42,609 bases of DNA. Source: Sphingobacteriales bacterium. Lineage in GTDB: Bacteria; Bacteroidota; Bacteroidia; Chitinophagales; Chitinophagaceae. The position numbers were made by a program, and so were the translations under genes. Positions within the stretch are counted from its first letter, which is position 1. Each line of letters starts with the position of its first letter. Below the pieces are notes generated by a model, which saw nothing but the letters and a program-made list of their open reading frames with translations, had not been told where the DNA came from and made no database searches. Of the stretch, positions 4,479 to 11,746 are shown piece after piece. The stretch spans positions 1-42,609 of the forward strand of contig SEFT01000025.1 of the NCBI GenBank assembly GCA_004144175.1, written 5' to 3'.

Positions 4479-4943
4479 CTAAGAAAGCAGTCTTTGCCTG
4501 AGCAAGAACTCCAGCTGCTCGTTGGTCACACCCAGCTTTTCGGTCAACTCTTTTTCATCCTGCCTCATGCGGTATACGTCGTAGGCACGTTTTATCGTGT
4601 TATCCAGTTCTTCTTCGCTCCAGGGCTTGCTCAGGTAGTGGAATATCTTGCCTTTGTTTACTGCGTCTATCACCGCATTCATATCAGCGTAACCTGTCAG
4701 CAATATCCGCATAGGCTCGGGATATTCATCAATTATTGATTCCAGAAACTCTACGCCCGTCATATTGGGCATACGCTGGTCCGTAATGATGATATCTACC
4801 GGTTTGGATTTCAGTACCTTGATCGCCTCTTCTCCGCTTATTGCGGTCATCACATTATACTTCAGGCGGAAGGTGGCTTTGAAGGAAAACAGATTGTTTT
4901 CTTCATCATCCACGTAAAGTATATTTATTTTATTATCCGACAT
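4479..4943 (-). CDS. Response regulator, REC domain with helical tail
   Basis: A 154-aa protein made of one receiver domain and a charged C-terminal helix (about 125-154). The phosphorylation site is complete: acidic pair D12/D13, phospho-acceptor D55 in IIITDQRMP, T83 in LLTGYAD and K106 in LSKPW. There is no DNA-binding or enzymatic output domain, so it probably acts by protein contact or as a phosphorelay intermediate. The DQRMP and KPW forms are those of REC domains paired with hybrid kinases or HD-GYP/RpfG-like systems. It is clearly paralogous to the N-terminal REC of the hybrid kinase at 10248 (both run ILYxDDExNNLxSFKAxFR). It is divergent from the five-gene operon starting at 5106, so both may share control. 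Confidence 0.88.
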   Translation of the reverse strand: MSDNKINILYVDDEENNLFSFKATFRLKYNVMTAISGEEAIKVLKSKPVDIIITDQRMPNMTGVEFLESIIDEYPEPMRILLTGYADMNAVIDAVNKGKIFHYLSKPWSEEELDNTIKRAYDVYRMRQDEKELTEKLGVTNEQLEFLLRQRLLS

Positions 4944-4947
4944 TACT

Positions 4948-5079
4948 ATGGGTAATCGCAGTATTTTTGGCCGCTTTGAAAAATATCATTGCAAGATAGT
5001 TAATTTACTTGACAGTCATAGCTTTATATTGTATTTTAAAGCTCTTAAAACACCAATCCCGGCCGTGAAATTGACATAA
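4948..5079 (+). CDS. Possible 43-aa peptide ORF upstream of the E1/nitroreductase operon
   Basis: An ATG-initiated open frame fills most of the divergent intergenic region, coding MGNRSIFGRFEK... and ending ...PIPAVKLT, 26 bases before the operon's first ATG. No Shine-Dalgarno or promoter is evident ahead of it, and an open frame of this length arises easily by chance. It is recorded only because ThiF/E1 enzymes can act on the C-terminus of small peptides encoded next door (as MccB does). It is more probably a non-coding promoter region. Confidence 0.15.
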   Translation: MGNRSIFGRFEKYHCKIVNLLDSHSFILYFKALKTPIPAVKLT

Positions 5080-5105
5080 GGACACTATATTACAACTCGT
5101 TATAA

Positions 5106-7391
5106 ATGGATAAATTAAGGAAGAGAGCAGACGAGCAGAGAGACGTGTATCAACCTGAGTTTTTCAGGCTGCACAATAGTGAGGATAAAGAGCAACTAGA
5201 GCAGCTGGTGGATGCGCAAAAGCCGTACATCCACGATGAAATGTACGATCAGCTGAAAGAACTGGTCAAAAGCCGTAATCCTACACGGCCACTTAGCAAC
5301 GAAGATTACGAATCGCTGATAGCTACCCATCTCGGAGGGGTATCGCTGATAGAATTTGGCGTGTGGGTATATTATCCATGGAACAATCGCCTGGTACATA
5401 TACTAGACCGTGAAGAATTTATAGAAGCCCGTACATCACGCAATCAATACAAGATAACAAAGGCCGAACAGGACACACTTGCACAGAAGAAGGTAGGCGT
5501 GATAGGCTTATCCGTAGGCCAGTCGGTTTCGGTAACGATGGCTATGGAGCGTGGCTGCGGTGAGTTGCGGCTTGCCGACTTTGACGTGCTGGAGCTTACG
5601 AACTACAACCGAATACGTACCAGCCTGCACAACCTGGGCGTAAAAAAGGTTGTGGCTGTGGCGCGCGAGATCATGGAGATAGATCCATACCTGGTAGTAA
5701 AGTGTTATGCCGACGGTATAACCGAAGAAAACATCGGCAGCTTTATAGATGACGGTACCGGCAAGCTAGACCTGCTGATAGACGAATGCGATAGTGTAGA
5801 TATAAAGATACTGTGCAGGCTAAAGGCTAAAGAAGCACAGATACCGGTGCTGATGGAAGCCAGTGACCGAGGTACCATAGATGTGGAACGCTACGACCTG
5901 GAGCCGGAGCGGCCTATACTACACGGTAAGGTGGCCCACTTAGACTTGGGCAAGCTGAAAGAACTGAAATCATACGAGGAGAAAGTACCTTATATACTGC
6001 CTATAGCCGGTACCGATACGCTTTCTACAAGAATGAAGGCGTCGATGCTGGAGATAGGGCGTACCATCACTACCTGGCCGCAACTAGCCAGTGCCGTAGC
6101 GTTGGGTGGTGGCATTACCGCCGATGTTGCCAGGAGGATATTTCTGGATGAATATCACGAGTCGGGACGTTACTTCATAGATATAGAGCAACTGATATCG
6201 GATAAAGAAGCACCAGATGCCATTATGGAGCGTCCGGCTGAAGTTTCACAGGAAGAAATGGATGCGCTTATCGCCAAGGTAAATGTATCGCCCAGTGCAG
6301 GAACAACGACACTCAGTGACGAAGCTATATCAGAATTGGTAACTGCCGGGGCGCAGGCATATAGCAAAGGTAATCAGCAGCCCTGGAGGTGGAAATATGC
6401 GGACGGCAGGCTATATCTATTCTACAACAAAACGAGAAATAAGCATAACGCTGATTTAATAGCCCTTGGTGCCGCTACTGAGAATATTGTATTAAAGGCG
6501 CATGAGAAAGGACTGGAGATCACAGTATCTCATTTTCCTATGAGAACAGATAGCCATCTTGCGGCAGTATACAGCTTTCACAATAAAAATGAAGGCGCGG
6601 CGGAGCCACACATAGCGGATGAACTGGTTACAACCATCCCATATAGAGCTACCGATGTAAGTATAACAGATAAGAAGCCGATTGACGCTGCTAAACTGGA
6701 TAAGCTCCAACAAATTGCACAGACAATACCAGGCGCAAGTCTGAAGCTGATATCTGATGAAAAGTCCATGGCTGAAGTTAGCGAACTGATAGCAAAAGCT
6801 GAACGCCTGAGACTATTGGACGAAAATGGCGGGCACGCAGATTTTGTAAATGAGATCGACTGGGAAGAGCAGAACAAGGGTATAGGAACAGGTCTCTCAG
6901 AATTAAGACTACGACCGTCAGAACAGGTAGCCTACCATATGGTAAAGAACCTGGGCGTGATCAAATACCTGAATAAATGGAATGCAGGTTATGCATTGGA
7001 GTGGTTTGCAAGAAAATATACCATGTCGGCATCTGTAATAGGACTGCTGACCATGCCCGAACAAGATGACCAAAGCCTATTCAACGGCGGCAGGGCGCTG
7101 GAGCGCATATGGCTGGCTGCAAATAAAGAGGGGCTTGGATTTCAGCCGCTCAATACTATTACTTATCTTTTTGATGAGTTATCGACGGCGGGCAACGGAA
7201 GGTTTCCCGAAAAAGCGATGAACGATCTGCGGGAGATGAGAAAGAGCTACGAAAAAATATTCTCCCTGGAAAACAGCCAGGCGGCAGAAGTAATGCTATT
7301 CCGGCTATTCGTTTCTACAGAGCCTGCAACGCCGTCGCCCCATTTGCCAATCGAAAAACTGCTTTCATTCAGTTCAAGACACGACTCATGA
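5106..7391 (+). CDS. E1/ThiF-like adenylating domain fused to nitroreductase-like domain (Rv1355c family)
   Basis: A 761-aa fusion with the architecture NCBI calls the Rv1355c family. An N-terminal helical region (1-120) precedes a ThiF/MoeB/E1 Rossmann domain (about 121-340): glycine loop GLSVGQSV (134-141), DFDVLELTNYNR (158-169, the D-x-D...N-x-x-R nucleotide motif), K180/K181 and D226, so ATP-binding and adenylation residues look intact. The CxxC zinc pairs of ThiF/MoeB are missing and no E1 catalytic cysteine can be assigned. The C-terminal half (about 405-745) is a flavin nitroreductase-like domain of the Acg type, with SKGNQQPW (420-427), the LRPSEQVAYHMVKNLG segment near 602 and GGRALERIW (661-669). 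The substrate is unknown; the two chemistries could be successive steps on one molecule. It is first of five plus-strand genes, and its stop overlaps the acyltransferase start (ATGA). Confidence 0.85.
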   Translation: MDKLRKRADEQRDVYQPEFFRLHNSEDKEQLEQLVDAQKPYIHDEMYDQLKELVKSRNPTRPLSNEDYESLIATHLGGVSLIEFGVWVYYPWNNRLVHILDREEFIEARTSRNQYKITKAEQDTLAQKKVGVIGLSVGQSVSVTMAMERGCGELRLADFDVLELTNYNRIRTSLHNLGVKKVVAVAREIMEIDPYLVVKCYADGITEENIGSFIDDGTGKLDLLIDECDSVDIKILCRLKAKEAQIPVLMEASDRGTIDVERYDLEPERPILHGKVAHLDLGKLKELKSYEEKVPYILPIAGTDTLSTRMKASMLEIGRTITTWPQLASAVALGGGITADVARRIFLDEYHESGRYFIDIEQLISDKEAPDAIMERPAEVSQEEMDALIAKVNVSPSAGTTTLSDEAISELVTAGAQAYSKGNQQPWRWKYADGRLYLFYNKTRNKHNADLIALGAATENIVLKAHEKGLEITVSHFPMRTDSHLAAVYSFHNKNEGAAEPHIADELVTTIPYRATDVSITDKKPIDAAKLDKLQQIAQTIPGASLKLISDEKSMAEVSELIAKAERLRLLDENGGHADFVNEIDWEEQNKGIGTGLSELRLRPSEQVAYHMVKNLGVIKYLNKWNAGYALEWFARKYTMSASVIGLLTMPEQDDQSLFNGGRALERIWLAANKEGLGFQPLNTITYLFDELSTAGNGRFPEKAMNDLREMRKSYEKIFSLENSQAAEVMLFRLFVSTEPATPSPHLPIEKLLSFSSRHDS

Positions 7392-8086
7392 TCAGGATAC
7401 GGGCATATAGAGCGATCGACGATACGGCAACCTGCGAGAAGTTTGTAGAAGGGCATATGAAGATATTGAAAGCCTTCGGTATCACTATGATCACCTCTGC
7501 CAATGTAGAATGGTTTCAGGATCCTGACACCTATGTGATAGTTGCAGAAGATCCTGATAATGGTAAGGTACTGGGCGGTGCCCGAGTGCAGAGGGCCGGC
7601 GGACTATACCCGCTGCCGATAGAAAAGGCAGTAAAAGATCATGATGATTCTATACACGAAGTGGTGCAGGAATACTCAAAGGAAGGCACGGCGGAACTCT
7701 GCGGCCTTTGGAACTCTCGCGAGATAGCCGGTATGGGTATAGGCAGCGTGTTCCTTACGCGTACCGCTGTATGCATAGCACCGCAGATAGGACTTAAATC
7801 TATGTTTGCATTATGTGCGGCCTACACAGTACAGATGGCGCAAAAGGCGGGTTATCGGATAGCTACCTTCCTGGGTAATAACGGTACGTTCTACTATCCC
7901 AAAGAAGACCTGGTGGCAACAGCTATGCTGCTGCATGACGCAGAAGATCTAAGCACGGCCGACCCGCAAGAACGCGACGAAATATTATCATTAAGAGAAA
8001 ATCCCCTACAGGTGAAAACAGAAGCGGGCAGGAGAGGGGCAACCTTTGAATTGTTGTACGACTTACAAATAAAACGAACGATATGA
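7388..8086 (+). CDS. GNAT-fold acyltransferase, FeeM/autoinducer-synthase-like
   Basis: A 232-aa protein. The core looks GNAT-like: a long N-terminal region with a DPDTYVIVAEDPDNGKVLGGARVQ strand pair, then TAELCGLWNSREIAGMGIG (about 98-116), which resembles the conserved E-x-x-R/W strand and acyl-CoA pyrophosphate loop (R/G-x-G-x-G/A) of GNATs, FeeM-type N-acyl amino acid synthases and LuxI-type enzymes. The following helix and the AAYTVQMAQKAGYRIATFLGNNGTFYYPK segment fit the C-terminal half of the fold. It lacks features that would fix a substrate. It is translationally coupled on both sides by ATGA overlaps, so it should act with the E1/nitroreductase protein and the membrane kinase. The fold call is moderately sure; the autoinducer-like role is inference. 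Confidence 0.6.
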   Translation: MIRIRAYRAIDDTATCEKFVEGHMKILKAFGITMITSANVEWFQDPDTYVIVAEDPDNGKVLGGARVQRAGGLYPLPIEKAVKDHDDSIHEVVQEYSKEGTAELCGLWNSREIAGMGIGSVFLTRTAVCIAPQIGLKSMFALCAAYTVQMAQKAGYRIATFLGNNGTFYYPKEDLVATAMLLHDAEDLSTADPQERDEILSLRENPLQVKTEAGRRGATFELLYDLQIKRTI

Positions 8087-10236
8087 ATATCGCCCGGTTT
8101 TACTTATTCATCCTGCTATCATGTATCACAACCATTGTAACCGCGCAAGACGCGGTAATATATAATACTGCTGACCGCAACATAGAGATCGGTAACCAGG
8201 TATACCTGCTGGAAGACAAAGAAGGCACGCTTACCGTAGAGCGGGCGCTGAATGCACCCGGCTATAAAAAGAGTGAACTGGGAGTGCCAAATATGCAGAT
8301 AACGCCTTCTGCATTCTGGATAAAGTTTAGTGTGACAAACAATACGGATGAAGACCCGGTATTGGAACTGTCTCACTCTACTATCGACAGTGTGACCTTC
8401 ATAAGCGTAGGCGAAGGTGGTAAAACCAGCGTGGTCAGCTCGGGTGAGTTTATTCCTTTCTACGCACGCTGGTTCGAGCATCAGAACTATATATTTGATC
8501 TGGGCCTGGCTCGTGGAGAAACGAAAACCTACCTATTAAAAGTAAGGGCGGCAGAACAATTACAAGTACCACTGACGATCGGCACGCAAAAAAGTATTTC
8601 GGAATCGCTGCTGAGCCGCGACACGATCTTTGGCCTGTACGCCGGCATCATGCTGGTGATGTTCTTTTACAACCTATTCGTATTCTTTACCGTTCGCGAC
8701 ACTACCTATCTGTATTACGTTGCCTACATCTTTACGGTAGGTATGACCCAGGCTTGCGTACAGGGTTATGCGTTTCGTTATTTTTACCCAACATCGCCAT
8801 ACCTGGCCAATTCAATGATGGTGCTGTTTCCTGCCTTATCCGGCGTTACGGCACTAGCCTTCCTGAAGAAGTTTTTGCAGGTAAAGAAGTTTACGCCCAT
8901 TGCCAACAAGATCATCAACGGCATACTCATCATCTACACCATAGCCATCATCATGGGTATGTTCTGGAAGACACAGATGATGGGTCAATCGATAGTGCAG
9001 CTCTGCGCCATGCTGGGTTCTATATTGGTGTTAGTGATCGGTATTACCATAGCACGAAAAGGCTACCGTCCCGCAGTATTCTTTCTGATAGCATGGTCTA
9101 TATTCCTGGCGGGCGTTGTGGTATTTGTACTGCGCAACTTTGGCGCGCTGCCGTACAATAACTTTACTTACTACGCCTTGCAGATAGGATCGGCGCTGGA
9201 AAGTATATTGCTGTCCTTCGCCCTGGCCGATAAGATCAATACATTCAGAAAGGAAAAGGAAGAATCACAGGCGCAGGCGCTGAACGCACTGGAAGAAAAT
9301 GCACGCATCGTAAGGGAACAAAACGTGATACTGGAAACTAAGGTGAGTGAGCGCACATTGGAGCTTAAAGTATCGAACGAAGAGCTGAACAAAACCCTGT
9401 ACGAACTAAAGGAAAAGGAAATGCAACTGGTAGAGTCAGAGAAAATGGCTTCACTCGGTCAGCTAACCGCGGGTATAGCACACGAGATAAATAACCCGAT
9501 CAACTTCGTGACGTCGAATGTGAAGCCATTGAAGCGCGATGTGGAAATGGTGATAGATATGTTTTCCCAAGTAGAGCAGATATCGCTATCGCCTACATCG
9601 ATACAGGAAAAGCAAAGCCAGATCGAGTCGCTAAAGGAGGAATATGATTTCGACTATCTCCGTACTGAGATAGACTATCTACTAAAAGGCATCACCGAGG
9701 GCTCTACTCGTACTGCTGAAATAGTGAAGGGCCTGCGGATATTCAGCAGGCTGGATGAGGACGATCTGAAGAAGGCCAATATTAATGAGGGCATCGATTC
9801 GACTATTGTTATTATAAACAACCTGCTGGATAATAAGATCGTCATCGAGCGCAAATACGGCAACCTGCCGCTGGTAGAATGTTATCCCGGTAAGCTTAAC
9901 CAGGTATTTTTGAATATCATTACGAACGCAATCCATGCGGTGAAGTCGAGATTTAAAGAAGCGCAGGGCGGGGAAATATACATTACCACTTATCATTCAG
10001 AAACAACTGTATCTATCAGCATAAAAGACAACGGCACGGGTATGGACGAAAACACAAAGAAGAAGCTCTTCGAACCGTTCTTTACTACAAAAGATGTGGG
10101 AGAGGGTACTGGTCTCGGGTTATCAATAGCATACAATACTATAAAGAAACATAACGGCACTATTGCTGTGAATTCGACAATTGGTGAGGGTACGGAGTTC
10201 ATTATCGAGCTGCCCATAATTCAGGAATTATTGTAA
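8083..10236 (+). CDS. 7TM-DISM sensor histidine kinase
   Basis: A 717-aa inner-membrane kinase. A signal peptide (1-22) is followed by a periplasmic 7TMR-DISM extracellular domain type 2 (about 25-165, beta-rich, thought to bind ligands), a seven-helix 7TM-DISM module (about 180-385), a coiled coil (385-455) and a kinase core. The phosphorylated histidine is H467 in MASLGQLTAGIAHEINNPIN. The ATP-binding domain has N box LNQVFLNIITNAIHAV, G1 DNGTGM and G2 GTGLGLSI, so the kinase looks active. No REC domain is fused; the REC proteins at 10248 and 11336 (and 4479) are the obvious partners. The ATGA overlap with the acyltransferase gene suggests the sensor may respond to what the upstream enzymes make, which is inference from layout. 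Confidence 0.9.
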   Translation: MNIARFYLFILLSCITTIVTAQDAVIYNTADRNIEIGNQVYLLEDKEGTLTVERALNAPGYKKSELGVPNMQITPSAFWIKFSVTNNTDEDPVLELSHSTIDSVTFISVGEGGKTSVVSSGEFIPFYARWFEHQNYIFDLGLARGETKTYLLKVRAAEQLQVPLTIGTQKSISESLLSRDTIFGLYAGIMLVMFFYNLFVFFTVRDTTYLYYVAYIFTVGMTQACVQGYAFRYFYPTSPYLANSMMVLFPALSGVTALAFLKKFLQVKKFTPIANKIINGILIIYTIAIIMGMFWKTQMMGQSIVQLCAMLGSILVLVIGITIARKGYRPAVFFLIAWSIFLAGVVVFVLRNFGALPYNNFTYYALQIGSALESILLSFALADKINTFRKEKEESQAQALNALEENARIVREQNVILETKVSERTLELKVSNEELNKTLYELKEKEMQLVESEKMASLGQLTAGIAHEINNPINFVTSNVKPLKRDVEMVIDMFSQVEQISLSPTSIQEKQSQIESLKEEYDFDYLRTEIDYLLKGITEGSTRTAEIVKGLRIFSRLDEDDLKKANINEGIDSTIVIINNLLDNKIVIERKYGNLPLVECYPGKLNQVFLNIITNAIHAVKSRFKEAQGGEIYITTYHSETTVSISIKDNGTGMDENTKKKLFEPFFTTKDVGEGTGLGLSIAYNTIKKHNGTIAVNSTIGEGTEFIIELPIIQELL

Positions 10237-10247
10237 ATTGATTTGGG

Positions 10248-11339
10248 TTGGACAACAAGAACAAAATAAAAATCCTTTACATCGACGATGAGGCAAATAA
10301 CCTCATCAGCTTCAAAGCGTCCTTCAGGTTCGACTATACGATACTGACTGCCGTTTCTACCGCCGAAGCCGATGCACACCTTGAAAAACATGCGGATATC
10401 AGCATCATACTCTGCGACCAGCGCATGCCCGATAAAACCGGGGTTGAGTATTTTGAAGAGATCAGGAATAAATATCCTAATCCCGTAAGGATACTGATAA
10501 CGGGGTATACAGATGTTGAATCAGTCATTAACGCAATTAACCGCGGACATATCTTCAGATATGTAAAAAAGCCCTGGACGGATATGGATGTCGCTTCGGC
10601 AATTGAGGAGGCGCACAAATTCTATATCGCTACCTCGATGCTGACGGTAAAGAACCAGGAGCTGCAGAAGGCATATAATGAACTGGATAAATTTGCATAT
10701 AGTGCCACGCACGATATGCGTGGGCCGATATTGAGCGTGCTCGGTATCATCAACCTTTCGAAGAACATAGATAACATTACCGACATAAGGCAGATGATGG
10801 ATATGGTGGAGAAGGCTATGCTAAAGCTGGATAACTATATACAGAACCTGCATGACTACTACAACCTGAAAAGGGGAGAGCTGAGCATATCTGATATTAA
10901 CTTCAACGATATGGTAAAAGACATGTCGGATATGTTTGAAATTGCCAGTAAGCTGGAGCAGGTGCAGTTTAGCTGCAATGTGGTGCAGGATGAACCTTTC
11001 CGGTCCGATGAGGTATCTCTGAAGATCATAGTTAATAATTTATTGTCGAATGCTTTCAAATATCAGGATAAGAAAAAGTTAAACAAATTTGTAACTTTGG
11101 ACGTGGCGGTAAGTAAGGGTGCTGCAACGATCAATGTAAAAGATAATGGAATAGGTATTCCGGAAAAAAGTATTAGCCAGGTGTTTGATATGTTCTTCAG
11201 GGCCACTACTTTAGAGTTCGGGTCGGGTTTTGGTTTATATAATGTAAAAGATGCATTAAGTAAAGTGAACGGAACGATAGATGTATCGTCAAAAGAACAC
11301 GAGGGCACTACTTTCACCGTAATGATACCAACAAAATGA
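10248..11339 (+). CDS. REC-histidine kinase hybrid, TTG start
   Basis: A 363-aa soluble protein: REC domain (1-122; D13/D14, phospho-acceptor D57 in ILCDQRMP, T85, K108) followed by a helical linker and a histidine kinase (H155 in FAYSATHDMRGPILS; N box IIVNNLLSNAFKY; G1 DNGIGIP; G2 GSGFGLYNV). This order, REC ahead of kinase, fits a relay that receives phosphate from the membrane kinase and passes it on. The start must be TTG at 10248: an in-frame stop (TGA, 10239-10241) lies just upstream and no ATG occurs before the REC core, while the resulting N-terminus MDNKNKIKILYIDDE aligns with MSDNKINILYVDDE of the regulator at 4479. It lies 11 bases after the kinase gene and overlaps the next gene by ATGA. 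Confidence 0.88.
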   Translation: MDNKNKIKILYIDDEANNLISFKASFRFDYTILTAVSTAEADAHLEKHADISIILCDQRMPDKTGVEYFEEIRNKYPNPVRILITGYTDVESVINAINRGHIFRYVKKPWTDMDVASAIEEAHKFYIATSMLTVKNQELQKAYNELDKFAYSATHDMRGPILSVLGIINLSKNIDNITDIRQMMDMVEKAMLKLDNYIQNLHDYYNLKRGELSISDINFNDMVKDMSDMFEIASKLEQVQFSCNVVQDEPFRSDEVSLKIIVNNLLSNAFKYQDKKKLNKFVTLDVAVSKGAATINVKDNGIGIPEKSISQVFDMFFRATTLEFGSGFGLYNVKDALSKVNGTIDVSSKEHEGTTFTVMIPTK

Positions 11340-11746
11340 CCATGACAAAGGATAAGACTAATTTTATAGTAATAGACGATAGCAAGCTCGATTGTTTTAT
11401 TGCCGAAAAGATCATCCAGACTTCCGGCAAGTCAGAGACCATTAAGACCTTTCTTCAGGCATCAGAAGCGTTGGATTATATTAAAGACAAATCGGCATCA
11501 CCGGATGATCACACCATCCTTTTTGTAGACATCCAAATGCCCGTGATGAACGGTTTTGAATTTGTAGAAGCTTTTGATAGCCTACCCGCAGACAGGAAGA
11601 GCGCGTACACCATCTACATGCTCTCTTCATCTATTAATGAGAATGACATAGCCAAAGTACGCAGCCTGGCAGCGGTAAAGCAATTCATCAACAAACCACT
11701 TACGGTTGATGCAGTAAAGCAGATATTTGAGAATCAGAACGTGTAA
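11336..11746 (+). CDS. Single-domain response regulator
   Basis: A 136-aa receiver domain: acidic pair in FIVIDDSKLD, phospho-acceptor D65 in LFVDIQMPVMNGFEF, the S/T in MLSSSINENDI and K in FINKPL. It belongs to the short REC type (Rcp1-like) common next to REC-kinase hybrids, and differs clearly from the DQRMP-type REC domains of the other two proteins here, so it may be the last acceptor of the relay. There is no output domain. ATGA overlap with the hybrid kinase gene shows translational coupling. A second ATG two codons in is an equally good start. The operon ends here with a terminator. Confidence 0.88.
   Translation: MTMTKDKTNFIVIDDSKLDCFIAEKIIQTSGKSETIKTFLQASEALDYIKDKSASPDDHTILFVDIQMPVMNGFEFVEAFDSLPADRKSAYTIYMLSSSINENDIAKVRSLAAVKQFINKPLTVDAVKQIFENQNV

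Follow-up and report, generated by a model that had tools for sequence, protein, structure and literature searches.

A putative chemical signalling module of Bacteroidota in which an N-acyltransferase with interchangeable tailoring enzymes adjoins a 7TM-DISM receptor kinase

What is the purpose of an operon that joins a ThiF-type (E1-like) cyclase–flavin oxidase fusion and an acyltransferase to a membrane receptor kinase and its phosphorelay? This question is raised by six neighbouring genes in a stretch of 42,609 nucleotides (the window; contig SEFT01000025.1, assembly GCA_004144175.1) from a Sphingobacteriales bacterium of the phylum Bacteroidota. A first-pass annotation had proposed that the two enzymes make a small molecule, or modify a target, which the kinase senses or controls. 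Here we report that the cluster recurs in scattered Bacteroidota and looks like an undescribed, putative chemical signalling system. We consider it probable, by a modest measure, that its genes constitute a synthase-receptor signalling module in which the tailoring of an N-acyl amino acid can be exchanged.

The surroundings of the acyltransferase were compared in two draws of genomes, both confined to Bacteroidota: 395 genomes of the phylum, that of the window included, and 318 genomes of the window's order. The acyltransferase, represented by the ACYLTRANSFERASE profile, is uncommon, being present in 13 of the 395 and 33 of the 318 genomes; four genomes are common to both sets, resulting in 42 loci, the window among them. 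In 37 of these 42 loci, including the window, a 7TM-DISM kinase adjoins the acyltransferase, and a profile of the receptor picks out the same 37. A hybrid of receiver (REC) domain and histidine kinase is present in 34 of the 37 kinase-linked loci (in L218 it reads as two open reading frames (ORFs) and was counted as present); the exceptions are G109 (L143), with a REC-PAS-HisKA_3 protein, L233, where only a REC protein of 161 amino acids (aa) follows the kinase, and L234, where the contig ends. The acyltransferase scores are distributed in two humps: all loci at or above 229 bits possess the kinase, and the five at or below 131 bits, which are the most distant acyltransferase relatives, show none, with the contig ending within 0.5 kb past the acyltransferase in two of them (L236, L237).

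When the loci are anchored on the ThiF enzyme, matches to the Rv1355c family are found in 335 of the 395 genomes, mostly as single ThiF or nitroreductase domains; five genomes exceed the family cut-off, ten have a match of at least 397 bits, and in one, G109, a contig end cuts the match. Apart from the window, all nine long-match loci of this first draw combine ThiF (alone or fused), acyltransferase, 7TM kinase and REC-kinase, along with the divergent REC gene in seven and the last REC gene in three (BLAST). Six of the nine carry ThiF alone, with no fused oxidase, and a single-sequence search (E 0.001) found no relatives of the window's oxidase part in those six genomes. A scan of a one-per-species collection yielded at least 584 confirmed relatives, of which the best 80 were kept; these 80 loci are skewed to close relatives, so that the two genome draws provide the less biased count. 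Their labels comprise 79 Bacteroidota and one metagenome-assembled genome (MAG) assigned to Azovibrio, and the nearest named relative of the window among them is a Flavipsychrobacter MAG (70% over ThiF). In gene order the Azovibrio-labelled MAG (L049; Betaproteobacteria by its label) is identical to one labelled Bacteroides (L051), and it is thus probably a binning error.

Of the best 80 loci, 56 have sufficient room, defined as 1.7 kb of contig ahead of the ThiF start and 7 kb beyond it, and 24 were set aside. Oxidase, acyltransferase and 7TM kinase are each present in all 56, the REC-kinase in 52, the divergent REC in 55 and the last REC in 46. Across the full 80, cut contigs included, the corresponding counts are 78, 75, 74, 62, 71 and 52, where the 74 for the kinase includes L064, whose match is a different, weakly matching ORF. 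The acyltransferase follows the fusion in 54 of 75 pairs and precedes it in the other 21; since the order differs between loci, the module is not one frozen string. Among the same 80 loci, no gene family foreign to the module (strict BLAST clusters) is found in more than 11, and none of the genes that flank the module in the window in more than 10. Since acyltransferase and kinase occur in every one of the 56 loci with room, chance adjacency or local synteny was rejected as an explanation. Five of the 80 are without an acyltransferase (L052, L064, L080, L094, L118), and in all but L080 a contig end lies no more than 0.4 kb from the fusion or ThiF gene. Several Pedobacter loci (e.g. L057, L068, L075, L082) have two divergent REC genes. 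Environmental isolates with the module include Pedobacter caeni DSM 16990 (L068), Pedobacter steynii DSM 19110 (L088), Daejeonella lutea DSM 22385 (L112) and Mucilaginibacter arboris HMF7410 (L044).

The adjacency of enzymes and kinase is thus not confined to this strain (37 of 42, 56 of 56 and 9 of 9 loci), and a pairing of the kinase with unrelated genes elsewhere did not emerge when it was looked for; these were the two findings that the first-pass annotation had named as speaking against its proposal. What stays beside the kinase, however, is the acyltransferase and not the E1-oxidase fusion: among the 37 kinase-linked loci, 6 have other enzymes in the place of the fusion and a further 18 have no oxidase.

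What, then, occupies the place of the fusion? Of the 37 kinase-linked loci, 18 have ThiF alone next to the acyltransferase (truncated by the end of the contig in one of them), 13 a ThiF-oxidase, four a protein of the isoprenylcysteine methyltransferase (ICMT) family and two a flavin adenine dinucleotide (FAD)-linked oxidase. The ICMT-family proteins, of 213 aa, score 66-71 bits at a cut-off of 24 and lie between acyltransferase and kinase (L141, L142, L216, L218). The two FAD-linked oxidases of kinase-linked loci measure 535-538 aa and score 78 and 87 bits. Altogether, five genomes have a FAD_binding_4 oxidase of 494-538 aa adjoining the acyltransferase; the kinase is present in L213 and L224 and absent from L238 and L240, and L236 stands at a contig end. 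On a tree of the 42 acyltransferases, which has several long branches and 14 of 39 forks open, the four tailoring states need 10 changes, the minimum possible being three. One such change falls within the window's own genus, where G627 has the FAD oxidase and the window together with G573 the ThiF-oxidase (branch support 96/96). ICMT enzymes methylate the carboxylate of prenylated cysteine, and for this reason two of the classes of replacement are in keeping with a lipidated amino acid whose carboxylate is free. It thus looks as if an N-acyl amino acid were the fixed core and its carboxylate a main site of variation.

The presumed core is consistent with the structure predicted for the acyltransferase. 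Its AlphaFold2 model (predicted local distance difference test, pLDDT, 93.8) has FeeM (2g0b), an N-acyl amino acid synthase, as closest fold in the PDB with a template modelling (TM) score of 0.62 by query length, followed by the coenzyme A (CoA)-dependent acyl-homoserine lactone (AHL) synthases MesI and BjaI. The earlier description of this protein as GNAT-like is weak by sequence (17.3 bits, Pfam cut-off 20.7) and agrees with the predicted fold. The profile of the acyltransferase found no match among PDB sequences, and profile alignment with hhalign was weak for the neighbour of a Rhodococcus plasmid Rv1355c homologue (probability 66.6, E 5.4e-5) and nil for that of the tested Mycolicibacterium plasmid homologue (probability 0.3). 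Judged by family and predicted fold, synthesis of an N-acyl amino acid by the module is well supported. One locus (L058:12262-14226) contains two acyltransferase genes in tandem.

Studied oxazolone-forming homologues use Tyr, Phe or Trp, and OxzAB of Pseudoalteromonas rubra is reportedly a tyrazolone producer. The fusion of the window scores 734 bits against NF005901, the Rv1355c equivalog, at a cut-off of 476. Rv1355c is TrzS, which together with the acyltransferase TrzA yields N-acyl tryptazolones; its ThiF domain closes the ring using ATP (adenosine triphosphate) and its flavin domain desaturates it, and oxazolones are destroyed by acid and by alcohol (PMC12856293). Tyrazolones are the products of TyzACB of M. 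tuberculosis (PMC10404671). Three residues have been tested in TrzS of M. smegmatis, namely Asp217, Arg540 and Gln651; at the matching positions the fusion has Asp229, Arg567 or Arg569, and Gln680. These matches are indirect, as they come from an alignment to the plasmid homologue of Mycolicibacterium with numbers shifted by an offset of 13-15, M. smegmatis TrzS itself being outside the alignment, so that the choice between the two arginines is unsure. The oxazolone pathway has an N-acyl amino acid synthase adjacent to the cyclase, and the window has one in the overlapping second gene with FeeM as top PDB fold. Given the Rv1355c-family match and the FeeM-like fold, fusion and acyltransferase should represent an N-acyl oxazolone pair of the OxzAB/TrzAS type that converts an N-acyl amino acid to a predicted oxazolone.

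The receptor kinase follows the acyltransferase in its distribution. Ranked by a receptor profile built from module kinases, the 13 genomes with the acyltransferase are exactly those at the top of the 395, all at 357 bits or more; four of them, G109 (473 bits), G194 (406), G126 (375) and G383 (360), had no part in building the profile. The genome of the window, which is 97.6% complete, yielded one 7TM-DISM gene, that of the module. Beside lower-scoring 7TM kinases, in eight loci picked from the 50 genomes below the top 13, neither acyltransferase nor ThiF was found. A single origin of the module kinases does not follow from their trees, several of the trees made having long branches. The label of module kinase requires three changes on a tree of 41 rows and two on a tree of 36 rows, from which five long-branch rows had been dropped; for the latter, the approximately unbiased (AU) test does not reject a single clade of module kinases (p 0.134). 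A scan for specificity positions in the 7TM part revealed a few module-biased residues, and a Foldseek search with the full kinase model returned kinase proteins only among the 50 matches listed.

Combining these data, the following course of events can be proposed. The acyltransferase would attach a fatty acyl chain to an amino acid, which by analogy is probably aromatic, whereupon the ThiF domain would activate the free carboxylate with ATP and close the oxazolone ring, and the flavin domain would desaturate it; this oxazolone chemistry is carried over from the published homologues. From the gene context we infer that the 7TM-DISM kinase in the inner membrane may detect the lipid-like compound or its open-ring precursor. 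The kinase would then hand phosphate to the REC-kinase hybrid, from which it would reach both single REC proteins, and these would act on partners. Lineages would vary the tailoring, i.e. ring closure, with or without desaturation, probably methyl ester formation, or FAD-dependent oxidation, and keep synthase and receptor, as expected for a signal able to change its chemistry. We put forward more tentatively, as somewhat short of an even chance, the wider proposal of a signalling family of the Bacteroidota's own, in which the product of the FeeM-fold acyltransferase receives a swappable cap (oxazolone, saturated oxazolone, methyl ester or oxidised form), is read by a co-inherited 7TM-DISM kinase with its relay, and shifts in chemistry between relatives.

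A number of observations weigh against a synthase-receptor module. Conservation of neighbours shows joint function of the genes, not binding of the product by the kinase, and it also fits a kinase that governs the synthesis genes but does not sense what they make. The association is also not without gaps. Three loci (L238, L239, L240) carry other genes in the place of the kinase, L239 pairing the acyltransferase with the fusion, and L238 and L240 with the FAD oxidase. In L080 the fusion has neither acyltransferase nor kinase in 5.1 kb downstream (only 0.5 kb being available upstream), and in L114 three other ORFs separate fusion and acyltransferase. Among the 56 loci with room, L062, L093 and L110 have no REC-kinase, and in L060 a REC-PAS-HisKA_3 protein takes its place. 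The margin of the receptor profile is thin, with 357 bits against 348 for the next genome. The sensor part of the kinase is more variable than its catalytic part, and a single ligand across the family is therefore unlikely. On the enzyme side, the likeness to FeeM is moderate (TM 0.62), with many other GNAT folds ranked below, and two ICMT-like proteins reach 96-98 bits against the NCBIfam isoprenylcysteine methyltransferase model, whose cut-off is 160. The Pfam scan found no output domain in either single REC protein, and no regulator was identified nearby. Finally, tryptazolones are enriched in cells over medium, which is awkward for a secreted signal, although their acyl-tryptophan precursors are more abundant in the medium (PMC12856293). 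As for L239, a SpoIIE-phosphatase gene and a HATPase_c_2 (RsbW-like) gene, perhaps another signalling partner, are situated about 1 kb away from its acyltransferase and ThiF-oxidase (L239:12474-15357).

A rival reading has a reversed order of events, in which the relay senses another cue, such as envelope stress or the environment, and turns on the synthesis of an N-acyl oxazolone that serves as effector (a stress lipid or antimicrobial) and not as ligand. Sub-inhibitory antibiotics induce oxazolone production in proteobacteria, and N-acyl tyrosine derivatives that are secreted can have antimicrobial activity (PMC12856293); the overlapping genes would be a simple coupling of sensing to production. 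Against this, the receptor subtype follows the acyltransferase across the phylum sample, the eight lower-scoring 7TM kinase loci have no such enzymes beside them, and single REC proteins in which no DNA-binding domain was found would be an odd means of driving one operon, so that we regard the effector role as unlikely, though as the strongest of the rivals. Decidedly less probable is that acyltransferase and tailoring enzymes make envelope aminolipids, i.e. a structural compound, and that the kinase monitors the state of the membrane. Bacteroidota do make glycine lipids and flavolipins (PMC12479983), and a second REC-kinase and REC pair of the window's genome (L211:6695-8184; C77:105000-121000), 51% and 45% identical to that of the module, sits amid genes for polysaccharides, among them glycosyltransferases, an epimerase and an asparagine synthase. 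This pair is a hint at an output, in that relays of the kind may be used to control exopolysaccharides. The module, however, shows neither a second acyltransferase nor a gene for a head group, and its fusion belongs to an oxazolone-forming family. This family membership also speaks against an E1 domain that activates the carboxylate of a protein or peptide and thereby modifies a target of the relay. The ThiF/E1 fold and weak PDB sequence matches to UBA5 and TcdA might suggest such a role, but the fusion exceeds the Rv1355c equivalog cut-off and the studied members of that family cyclise N-acyl amino acids, as has been shown for TrzS with N-acyl tryptophan (PMC12856293). We have thus rejected E1-like protein modification, with very little probability left to it, in favour of small-molecule cyclisation; of the two possibilities offered by the first-pass annotation, the small molecule is upheld by family and fold, and target modification has become improbable.

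How does the proposed synthase-receptor module relate to known systems? Its enzymes resemble TrzAS (mycobacteria, Rhodococcus), OxzAB and TyzACB, in which an N-acyltransferase has as its neighbour a ThiF cyclase that is either joined to a nitroreductase-type flavin oxidase in one protein or adjacent to it; in contrast to these, 18 of the 37 kinase-linked module loci have ThiF without the oxidase. The signalling idea for oxazolones is already in print, as the discussion in PMC12856293 notes that c-di-GMP (cyclic di-GMP) genes adjoin trzAS and that a signalling role is possible; "histidine kinase" and "two-component" do not occur in that paper. A Rhodococcus plasmid (L041:3851-7944) echoes this arrangement with a GGDEF-domain gene near an Rv1355c-family gene.

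The relay side resembles the phc operon of Ralstonia, which encodes the synthase PhcB, the sensor kinase PhcS, PhcR (a receiver and kinase protein without DNA-binding domain) and the receiver PhcQ (PMC8578825). The order of synthase, membrane sensor kinase, REC-kinase and single REC is shared with the module, a likeness that refers to layout and not to compared sequences, and because the constant set of genes matches the phc layout we propose that the module would work like Phc with other chemistry. It is not a member of Phc, since the synthase differs: PhcB is a methyltransferase that leads to hydroxy fatty acid methyl esters, whereas the module has a FeeM-fold acyltransferase and a ThiF-oxidase, and thus two synthesis genes instead of one, plus the divergent REC gene. 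The Pfam scan showed no PhcB-type methyltransferase among the operon proteins, the ICMT-type variants occurring at other loci, and no PhcA-like regulator was identified, no genome-wide search for one having been made. The acyltransferase fold is near that of CoA-dependent AHL synthases, here MesI and BjaI, but the receptor candidate is a 7TM-DISM kinase, carboxylate-tailoring enzymes are present and no LuxR-type gene was found among the eight proteins scanned; membership in LuxI/LuxR was therefore rejected. The 7TMR-DISM_7TM and DISMED2 sensor parts of the module kinase are also those of the kinases SagS, RetS and LadS, for which, to our knowledge, no linked lipid synthase has been reported.

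The six genes of the window are summarized in Table 1. Their places, three overlapping ATGA junctions (at 7388, 8083 and 11336) and the gap of 11 bases between the 7TM-DISM kinase gene and the REC-kinase gene, which starts with TTG, agree with the first-pass annotation when compared with the ORF list of the window (ORFs of at least 80 aa in the first 16 kb, eight proteins of which were scanned against Pfam). Pfam scores likewise bear out its domain calls for the fusion, the kinase, the hybrid and the single REC proteins. The 7TM-DISM kinase matches PF07695 (7TMR-DISM_7TM) with 179 bits (cut-off 29), PF07696 (7TMR-DISMED2) with 94.6 bits (cut-off 22) and HATPase_c with 85.2 bits. Each of the three REC domains has a phospho-acceptor motif, as has each of the two kinases. 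The Pfam scan gave no output domain for the divergent and the last REC protein and no DNA-binding domain for the REC-kinase hybrid.

Table 1. Genes of the module in the window, with predicted products.
Product	Position	Strand	Features
Single REC protein, divergent	4479..4943	-	154 aa; Response_reg 79 bits; Asp55 phospho-acceptor by motif
ThiF (E1-like) cyclase and nitroreductase-superfamily flavin oxidase fusion, TrzS/OxzB type	5106..7391	+	761 aa; ThiF 64.7 bits, nitroreductase 32.3 bits; NF005901
FeeM/LuxI-fold N-acyltransferase, predicted N-acyl amino acid synthase	7388..8086	+	232 aa; AlphaFold2 fold
7TM-DISM receptor histidine kinase, periplasmic DISMED2	8083..10236	+	717 aa; His467 phospho-acceptor by motif
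REC-histidine kinase hybrid, PhcR-like layout	10248..11339	+	363 aa; REC 53.4 bits, HATPase_c 85.4 bits; Asp57 and His155 by motif
Single REC protein, last gene	11336..11746	+	136 aa; REC 43.4 bits; Asp65 by motif

In conclusion, the view of the first-pass annotation that no described system has this layout holds, within the literature searched, for the linkage of enzymes and kinase and not for the chemistry of the enzymes, which is largely known. A description of acyltransferase or oxazolone enzymes linked to receptor kinases was not found in the open-licence full-text literature, a search that left most subscription papers and preprints outside. As far as searched, the enzymes are known and the type of layout is known, and their union is the new element. 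The physiological role of oxazolones is described as a major unresolved question, with signalling only suspected (PMC12856293). A conserved receptor candidate beside the synthase makes this suspected oxazolone signalling directly testable in soil bacteria. If the proposal is true, N-acyl oxazolones would gain a function and the kinases of this group a class of ligand, and Bacteroidota could have a dedicated lipid-signal system, with the swaps of tailoring enzymes as a natural experiment on the joint change of signal and receptor.

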